From assembly GCF_013403565.1 (NCBI RefSeq), contig NZ_CP058627.1, positions 3,410,001 to 3,474,000 on the forward strand: a stretch of DNA of 64,000 bases. Reading direction: 5' to 3'. Position numbers and translations under genes: made by a program. Below, one piece after another: positions 27,767 to 28,566 of the stretch. This stretch comes from Chitinibacter bivalviorum. Lineage in GTDB: Bacteria > Pseudomonadota > Gammaproteobacteria > Burkholderiales > Chitinibacteraceae. Position 1 is the stretch's first letter; every line of letters begins with the position of its first letter. Below the pieces are notes generated by a model. The model was not told the DNA's origin. It did not search any database and was given only the letters and a program-made list of their open reading frames with translations.

Positions 27767-28120
27767 TTATGAGCAACCGGCAACCGTTGCTGCTTTAGCT
27801 ACGCAACCTGTGCTTGGGCAGGCACTTGATACATTTGGTGATGCGCCGTTGGTGTTGCCGCCGAAGTAGTTTTTACCTTTCTTTGATGATGCACAAACAC
27901 CGACTTGTACTGCGTCTTCCATTGCTGCTAAGTGGGTGTTGGCAGAGCATGTTGGTGTAAAGCCGGCTTGCAGGTAGCCTGTGGCGCTTGTCGTTACTGC
28001 TGTGCCGTTGCCTGCACCTGTTGCAGCGCAGAGAGCCGTTGATGAGGTTAGTGTTGCAGCTGATGCAAAGTTTACCGACCCGGCAGCCAAAAGTGCCGCA
28101 ATAATAAAACGTGCTTTCAT
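27767..28120 (-). CDS. Small secreted cysteine-containing protein downstream of short pilins
   Basis: 117 residues. A clear Sec signal peptide (MKARFIIAALLAAGSVNFASA) is followed by about 95 residues rich in Ala, Thr, Ser and Gly with six cysteines, an even number fit for three disulfides. It follows the 60-residue pilin after only 22 nt with AGGAGAT as ribosome-binding site, so it is cotranscribed. In Geobacter sulfurreducens a short PilA-N is followed by a separate PilA-C (Spc) protein that completes the pilin. A similar partner role here is plausible by position, but I see no recognisable sequence similarity. Confidence 0.8.
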   Translation of the reverse strand: MKARFIIAALLAAGSVNFASAATLTSSTALCAATGAGNGTAVTTSATGYLQAGFTPTCSANTHLAAMEDAVQVGVCASSKKGKNYFGGNTNGASPNVSSACPSTGCVAKAATVAGCS

Positions 28121-28142
28121 GTCAATATCTCCTGATGGCCGA

Positions 28143-28325
28143 TTATTGGTTAGAGTTTGCAGATGCAGAAGTCAAGAAGTTGCGTGCGTCTGACTGAGCA
28201 GCTTTGTCTTCACCTTTTTTGGTGTATTCCGCAAATTGCGGAATCGCAATAGCAGCCAAAATGCCGATAATCGCAACCACGATCATCAACTCAATCAGTG
28301 TAAAGCCTTGTTGCAGTTTTTTCAT
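28143..28325 (-). CDS. Short type IV pilin, helix only (60 aa)
   Basis: 60 residues. The leader MKKLQQG precedes FTLIELMIVVAIIGILAAIA, a perfect class III prepilin with Glu at mature position 5. The mature chain is 53 residues and stops where the globular domain of a normal 150-residue pilin would begin. Aromatic residues fall at mature positions 1, 24, 27 and 43; positions 1, 24 and 27 match Geobacter PilA. AAGGAT lies before the ATG and a sigma-54 type promoter at 28376-28391. It is not a degenerate fragment: nearly the same short form is repeated upstream. Confidence 0.93.
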   Translation of the reverse strand: MKKLQQGFTLIELMIVVAIIGILAAIAIPQFAEYTKKGEDKAAQSDARNFLTSASANSNQ

Positions 28326-28375
28326 GATCTAAATCCTTATTGAAAGGGGTGGGGAATCCACTGTTTTTTATATTA

Positions 28376-28391
28376 AGCACAAAGTGTGCCA
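28376..28391 (-). promoter_or_regulatory. Sigma-54 (-24/-12) promoter of the 60-aa pilin
   Basis: Minus-strand TGGCACACTTTGTGCT matches the TGGCAC-N5-TTGCW form with GG and GC exactly 10 nt apart. The expected start point near 28365 leaves a 40-nt leader. It abuts the stop codon of the upstream pilin. Confidence 0.75.
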
Positions 28392-28392
28392 A

Positions 28393-28566
28393 CTAATTTG
28401 AAGCACCATTTACAGTTGCAGCAGTTAAGAAATTTCTAGCATCACTGAGCGCAGTCTTATCTTCTGCTTTTGTTGTGAACTCTGCATATTGCGGAATTGC
28501 AATGCTGGCAAGAATGCCGATGATGGCAACAACAATCATTAGCTCGATCAATGTAAAGCCTTTCAT
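28393..28566 (-). CDS. Short type IV pilin, helix only (57 aa)
   Basis: 57 residues, starting ATG with AAGGAG 6-7 nt upstream. The leader is just MKG, followed by FTLIELMIVVAIIGILASIA, a canonical prepilin. The mature chain has 54 residues with aromatics at 1, 24, 27 and 43. About two thirds of the residues equal the 60-aa pilin downstream, including the SDARNFLT segment, so the two are a tandem duplication. It has its own sigma-54 type promoter at 28614-28629. Whether it forms filaments itself or co-assembles is unknown. Confidence 0.92.
   Translation of the reverse strand: MKGFTLIELMIVVAIIGILASIAIPQYAEFTTKAEDKTALSDARNFLTAATVNGASN

Follow-up and report, generated by a model that had tools for sequence, protein, structure and literature searches.

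Within a 64,000-nucleotide stretch of the Chitinibacter bivalviorum genome (NZ_CP058627.1, positions 3,410,001 to 3,474,000; hereafter the window), two short prepilin genes are followed by genes for a small exported protein, an ATP-binding cassette (ABC) transporter and a membrane protein resembling tetratricopeptide repeat (TPR) proteins. We consider it likely, with a probability of roughly 0.8, that this operon encodes the split major pilin of a type IVa (T4a) pilus, made as two chains and exchangeable with the conventional one-piece pilin. An earlier note on this DNA had treated the two pilins and the exported protein as a three-gene unit; these three do belong together, but the operon runs on to 23383, and the transporter and the TPR-like protein are also part of it. 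The open reading frames of its last three genes overlap, and the layout is as follows:

28393..28566, minus strand: helix-only prepilin 1, 57 residues (54 when mature), from its open reading frame and Pfam
28143..28325, minus strand: helix-only prepilin 2, 60 residues (53 when mature), best solved relatives Geobacter PilA-N
27767..28120, minus strand: exported head protein, PilA-C-like by profile and fold, 117 residues, signal-like start, six Cys
26855..27736, minus strand: ABC-2 permease; the start of the open reading frame adjoins a hairpin, and a GTG at 27661 better matches the starts of relatives
25996..26853, minus strand: membrane-anchored TPR-like protein, 285 residues, a helix at 10-36 and then helical repeats
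25100..25999, minus strand: ABC ATPase (Pfam)
23383..25113, minus strand: Wzy_C (O-antigen-ligase-like) membrane protein, a variable member of the operon
28793..29245, minus strand: NrdG-like activase (named by eye), a gene of the flank, outside the system, by which the pilin site can be recognized in two genera

Both pilin genes are complete, and their description as encoding perfect prepilin motifs with no globular domain was borne out. The sole Pfam match of each was N_methyl (PF07963; E = 5e-11 and 2.2e-8), no domain was found after the helix, the head that is fused to the helix in PF00114 pilins was absent from both, and the chains stop 53-54 residues past the cleavage site. A class III leader followed by a helix only, in about 60 residues, characterizes the Geobacter-type split T4a pilin, and the closest solved relatives of the window pilins were Geobacter PilA-N. 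Aromatic residues (F/Y/W) occupy mature positions 1, 24, 27 and 43 in both, and the F1, F/Y24 and Y/F27 previously likened to those of Geobacter are among them.

The exported protein belongs to a family that has neither a Pfam model nor a name and whose members, where annotated at source at all, are mostly called hypothetical proteins. When a profile of 68 members was compared with solved structures, Geobacter PilA-C ranked first, and it did so again when the profile was restricted to the mature part (E = 0.089, a weak score); PilA-C chains were also the best matches among solved structures for the predicted fold, which includes beta strands, the score alone being weak for the fold as for the 68-member profile. 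The signal-peptide-like start of the window protein was judged by eye; start codons in relatives were chosen by a score favouring signal-like starts and so provide no independent evidence of a signal. The earlier count of six Cys was correct, although six is atypical for the family: 47 of 70 homologues carry four Cys after residue 20 and only two carry six, eight of the 78 extracted heads having been dropped from this count (three fragments, one with undetermined residues and four from genomes already represented by another locus). The heads are very diverse, with 20-42% identity to the window head in alignment A7. Those last four were re-included in that alignment, and five near-copies (L054, L075, L087, L088, L106) and two divergent heads (L092, L093) were left out by choice, which may flatter its uniformity; the divergent partners of L028 and L029 are present in alignment A1 and absent from A2 onward. 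Single-sequence searches, which gave one other protein among 87 scored candidates and a best PDB E of 0.4, would by themselves have made the head look like an orphan; the family became visible through alignment only. Silent pilin cassettes were rejected, since the genome holds no second copy of the head gene DNA (next match E = 0.025, about 30 bases). No fusion of N_methyl to a head was found among the 120 head homologues listed of 143. Tandem duplications of the head, or of pilin and head, occur in L031, L036, L081 and L020, with pilins and head present twice in L081. P0008, a metagenome protein of 116 residues from a 609-bp contig, has a tail with 82% identity to the window head behind an unrelated membrane-protein-like start, and represents either an assembly chimera or recombination.

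The gene order short pilin, head, ABC permease, membrane-anchored TPR-like protein, ABC ATPase is conserved. The earlier note had proposed a search of Chitinibacteraceae genomes, and among 43 of these we found the 285-residue protein in 11 (7 of 11 genera) and the exported head in seven. All ten other family loci carry one or two pilins of 56-61 residues, 18 further pilins in all, adjoined by an exported protein of 96-143 residues (two in L020) and followed by the permease, the 285-residue type of protein and the ATPase. A scan of named species with the 285-residue family retrieved 167 relatives, and the best 80 of these 167 loci were used for counting: 70 have a short pilin ahead of the permease, a head was recognized in 74, and the permease and ATPase were identified in 79 and 78, respectively; 68 contain the full set of five genes, and 16 have two short pilins. 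With 18 further short pilins in ten family loci, and one ahead of the permease in most named loci (70 of 80), the original observation is beyond chance. Eight of the 12 incomplete loci run into the end of a contig within or close to the operon, upstream in L034, L042, L057, L065, L072, L087 and L096 and downstream in L086; L038 has a short pilin and a 134-residue signal-bearing open reading frame missed by the head profile; and no short pilin was detected in the DNA at hand for L037, L063 and L071. Moreover, for 71 of the 78 extracted heads a short pilin lies no more than 200 nt upstream.

Hosts among the named loci include Rhodocyclales, Accumulibacter, Thauera, Comamonadaceae-like bacteria, Chitinimonas, Pseudomonas, Stutzerimonas and others. 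The betaproteobacterial setting originally emphasized holds for the window organism, but the system, judged by its genes, is patchy yet widespread in other beta- and gammaproteobacteria as well. A class-wide draw recovered the 285-residue protein in nine of 369 genomes, the window's genome counted, a figure that may be low given that many genomes had seven first-look candidates scored. From this draw, L131-L134, L136 and L137 have a pilin of 58-66 residues (51-52 when mature), and L138 ends at a contig edge; in L132 and L133, which were negative with the head profile, an open reading frame of 145-149 residues occupies the head position. Full-length prepilins adjoin the split operon in L132 (7393-7797), L136 (4903-5538) and L137 (5212-5721), more distant genomes in which the two kinds can coexist. 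L135, a 5.4-kb contig from an assembly with 7% contamination, has two full-length pilins (4386-5297) beside a distant set of PilG-like protein, ATPase and permease and is possibly a one-piece relative of the system: the helix of the pilin at 4869-5297 is closest to Geobacter PilA-N (E = 6e-24). The mature head profile did not pick out the full-length pilin of this locus from the other open reading frames (E = 0.37, rank 7 of 1041; E = 1.7 with the full profile). Related loci are not independent, and four pairs come from the same genomes (L098/L025, L030/L020, L032/L022 and L036/L023).

The split pilins occupy the place of one-piece pilins. At the nrdG-marked site, shared by two genera, prepilins lie within 3.5 kb of nrdG in 13 of 13 genomes: helix-only pilins alone in five (G000, G005, G017, G019, G023) and full-length pilins of 118-151 residues alone in eight. 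The pilins run opposite in direction to nrdG in G006, G007, G009 and G021, with a Wzy_C gene between in G009. Split and one-piece species of three further genera share a flank gene of 80-96% identity (G015/G016, G011/G010, G002/G004); no shared flank gene was seen for G013 and G003, six of the operon's seven genera having been examined, with G025 outside. PF00114 pilins were found in 34 of the 43 family genomes, in 29 of 32 without the operon versus five of 11 with it (Fisher p = 0.0044, uncorrected for kinship); four of these five matches lie in open frames of 279-407 residues and the fifth is weak (E = 2.5e-6). The window's genome contains no PF00114 pilin. All ten Pseudomonadaceae loci have the operon in divergent orientation to pilB, pilC and a further two genes taken by eye as pilD and coaE, PilB being confirmed by a curated model in L045 only. 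We take this position, divergent from pilB-pilC, to be the classical position of pilA. Together with the ranking of PilA-N and PilA-C and the pairing of the genes, this replacement makes the PilA-N/PilA-C-like split that the earlier note had put forward well supported, and the operon is best read as a substitute that can be exchanged for a one-piece major pilin at the same locus. Elsewhere in the window (13093-15214), a 440-residue protein faces a 237-residue protein with a prepilin motif (N_methyl only), near genes resembling galE and lptFG by eye; in L118 the pilin site is flanked by homologues of this pair, as it is by similar genes in L128 and L129.

The 285-residue protein, which we call PilG-like from its gene context only, shows 29-49% identity between genomes compared with 86-95% for NrdD, and the window copy is closer to that of another genus (49%) than to that of a congener (39%). 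Operon genes so much more divergent than their flank are the pattern expected of repeated horizontal exchange of a module. It may be, and we would put the odds at about even, that the pilin locus of many beta- and gammaproteobacteria is a swap site, at which a two-chain module with its own ABC transporter and TPR-like adaptor has repeatedly been exchanged with one-piece pilins through recombination in the flanking genes, the membrane-anchored adaptor delivering or pairing the chains. If so, two-chain pilins would in general need the transporter, which would then not be a polysaccharide exporter, and the split pilin would be a widely distributed way of building a pilus, independent of electron transfer.

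Signals in the intergenic DNA suggest how the two chains could be produced in balance. Three were located:

28614..28630, minus strand: sigma-54-like promoter TTGGCAC-N6-TGCT, beginning 64 nt upstream of pilin 1
28376..28392, minus strand: second sigma-54-like promoter, beginning 67 nt upstream of pilin 2
27705..27733, minus strand: terminator-like hairpin between the head and permease genes, its stem of 13 bp including 4 G-C pairs, with the T-run likewise on this strand

The exact pattern was set after both window sites had been seen, and independent support comes from the scan of relatives only: a sigma-54 consensus score of at least 10 was found upstream of 59 of 104 short-pilin genes (which include those of both L098 and L025, from one genome), a score reached in 1.7% of shuffles and by about 2.6% of 1035 other open reading frames. 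Of 75 loci, 63 have a terminator-like hairpin 3' of the head gene, against a rate of 1.7% in shuffles, and the mean folding z is -2.6; the controls for both signals were single-base shuffles. The generic sigma-54 consensus with one mismatch was not enriched in the window (9 sites versus 9.3 expected), and sigma-70 and terminator scans over the whole region stayed at chance level. Pilin and head would, on these signals, be co-produced in excess and the transporter made through read-through; the closeness of the head gene to a short pilin and the hairpin after the head imply a similar level of pilin and head. This predicted expression pattern is the best hint of a stoichiometric head, as expected of structural subunits.

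We propose that the short prepilins are processed as other T4a pilins are, with their helices driving polymerization, and that the 117-residue protein is exported, probably forming disulfides, and binds without a covalent link to the half of the helix that is exposed, where it would take the part of the missing globular domain as PilA-C does on PilA-N. Assembly would fall to the cell's ordinary PilB/PilQ machine. T4a pilus machinery is present in the window's genome (PilB 838 bits, PilQ 532 bits, both above cut-off), all 43 family genomes have a PilB above the curated threshold, and the machine accompanies split and one-piece pilins alike. In four loci (L039, L058, L076, L095) and 17 others outside the Pseudomonadaceae, a PilB/GspE-like ATPase precedes the first short pilin by 0.2-5.5 kb in the same orientation; these ATPases, mostly of 700-1100 residues and some clipped by the locus edge, are perhaps dedicated assembly motors. 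The permease, ATPase and TPR-like protein may act before assembly, in delivering or pairing the two chains; Myxococcus PilG, PilH and PilI, which are described as essential for translocation of pilin across the inner membrane (PMC3724824), suggest by analogy such a role on the pilin or the head. A high-confidence model of the 285-residue protein (mean predicted local distance difference test score, pLDDT, 93.7) starts with a single long helix that probably spans the membrane and continues with TPR-type helical repeats. The likeness to TPR proteins is a general one (Foldseek best E = 0.0075, none at or below 0.001).

Ligase-like or glycosyltransferase-like genes differ between operons, which suggests glycosylation, and the Wzy_C protein, also found beside full-length pilins in L118, possibly glycosylates the pilin or the head. 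Adjoining the operon in the window (15337-23389) is a glycan cluster, named by eye, with an ABC-2 exporter pair, nucleotide-sugar dehydratase-like proteins, glycosyltransferases and an undecaprenyl-phosphate-sugar-transferase-like protein; the sugar used by the ligase-like protein (23383-25113) could come from this cluster. At G000:C1:328085-329445 are three tandem prepilins of about 200 residues, of which the one scanned matches N_methyl only.

Two points weigh against a split major pilin: the homology of head and PilA-C is marginal on each separate score, and prepilins without a class leave room for another major pilin. The first would suit an arrangement in which the short pilins serve as minor pilins or build a filament of bare helix, and the 117-residue protein, sharing no more than the operon with them, works separately as a secreted adhesin or a tip protein, as would the diversity of the heads, which is common in adhesins. 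We think this unlikely, given that nearly all heads directly follow a short pilin and that the hairpin behind them points to similar levels of the two, that PilA-C chains head the matches of the predicted fold, and that the short pilins take over the site of a one-piece pilin. Furthermore, the Geobacter pilus is described as 7-8 nm wide with both chains present (PMC12954529), which tells against the thin filaments of helix alone that the earlier note had envisaged. The second point raises the prospect that the operon serves an accessory pilus and that the major pilin is another full-length prepilin: the genome has 22 prepilin motifs, including the three prepilins of about 200 residues and others without a class, as well as several PilB-like ATPases, and full-length prepilins stand beside the operon in L132, L136 and L137. 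This we regard as quite unlikely, the genome being without a PF00114 pilin, seven of ten proteins scanned being PilY1 or minor-pilin types, and the operon lying where congeners have tandem full-length pilins and, in the Pseudomonadaceae loci, beside pilB-pilC.

A conductive nanowire of the kind proposed for Geobacter electrically conductive pili (e-pili) would also begin from short pilins with aromatics at 1, 24 and 27, and truncated pilins have been linked in print to electron transfer (PMC5174107). A review of cryo-electron microscopy work nevertheless describes the PilA-N/C pilus as poorly conductive (PMC12954529). Aromatic residues make up 7.4-7.5% of the window pilins and at most 9.4% of any of 88 short pilins from the named loci, in line with the caution over conductivity and the lower aromatic density already voiced for this DNA. 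The corresponding content of the G. sulfurreducens pilin is about 9.8%. A search for decaheme cytochromes was uninformative, its controls being silent. The opposite view of e-pili has reportedly been published too. Nothing here points to conductivity, and we consider a nanowire highly improbable.

Helix-only pilins have mostly been discussed as Geobacter nanowires. In the hosts described here they take the place of a normal pilin as a drop-in replacement, accompanied by a conserved head and transporter. Congeneric species with split or one-piece pilins at the same locus are natural pairs in which to test the effect of splitting a pilin, the cargo of a pilin-linked ABC transporter and whether a short pilin means electron transfer; an annotation rule is also gained for the head family.

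Among known systems, Geobacter PilA-N/PilA-C (Geopilin domains 1 and 2; PDB 6VK9, 7TGG, 9EGP) is the nearest, sharing the helix-only pilin, the adjacent exported head and the T4a machine, and ranking first by sequence for the window pilins and by fold and profile for the head. The Geobacter heterodimeric pilin comprises 61 + 104 residues (PMC11046646). The system described here differs in its beta- and gammaproteobacterial hosts, in sometimes having two pilins, in the paired cysteines of most heads, in the lower aromatic content and in encoding an ABC transporter and a TPR-like protein in the operon. In G. sulfurreducens, a polysaccharide cluster with an ABC ATPase (GSU1498-1508) adjoins pilA (PMC3495685), and we set it beside the window transporter by description only. 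The Myxococcus PilG, PilH and PilI proteins resemble the window set as an ABC transporter set linked to pili, the ATPase and permease genes being co-encoded with the pilin in both; the likeness drawn here is one of gene context, and Myxococcus PilA is full-length, unlike the short pilins here. Truncated pilins were reported from Accumulibacter, Neisseriaceae, Pseudomonas and others by Shu et al. (2016), who, in the available text, analyzed partner genes for Geobacter only and do not mention the transporter, locus exchange or promoters (PMC5174107). Annotated betaproteobacterial major pilins span 42 to 279 residues in a 2024 survey (PMC11046646), the lower bound implying that short major pilins are already in databases. 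We found no account of the operon, the locus exchange or the partner protein outside Desulfuromonadales in searches of the open-access literature (older subscription work, for example on Pseudomonas pilin islands, is beyond this scope). Finally, canonical PF00114 pilins share with the split pilins the same chromosomal site in several genera and the T4a machine, but consist of one polypeptide, of about 130-160 residues in most tandem loci read.
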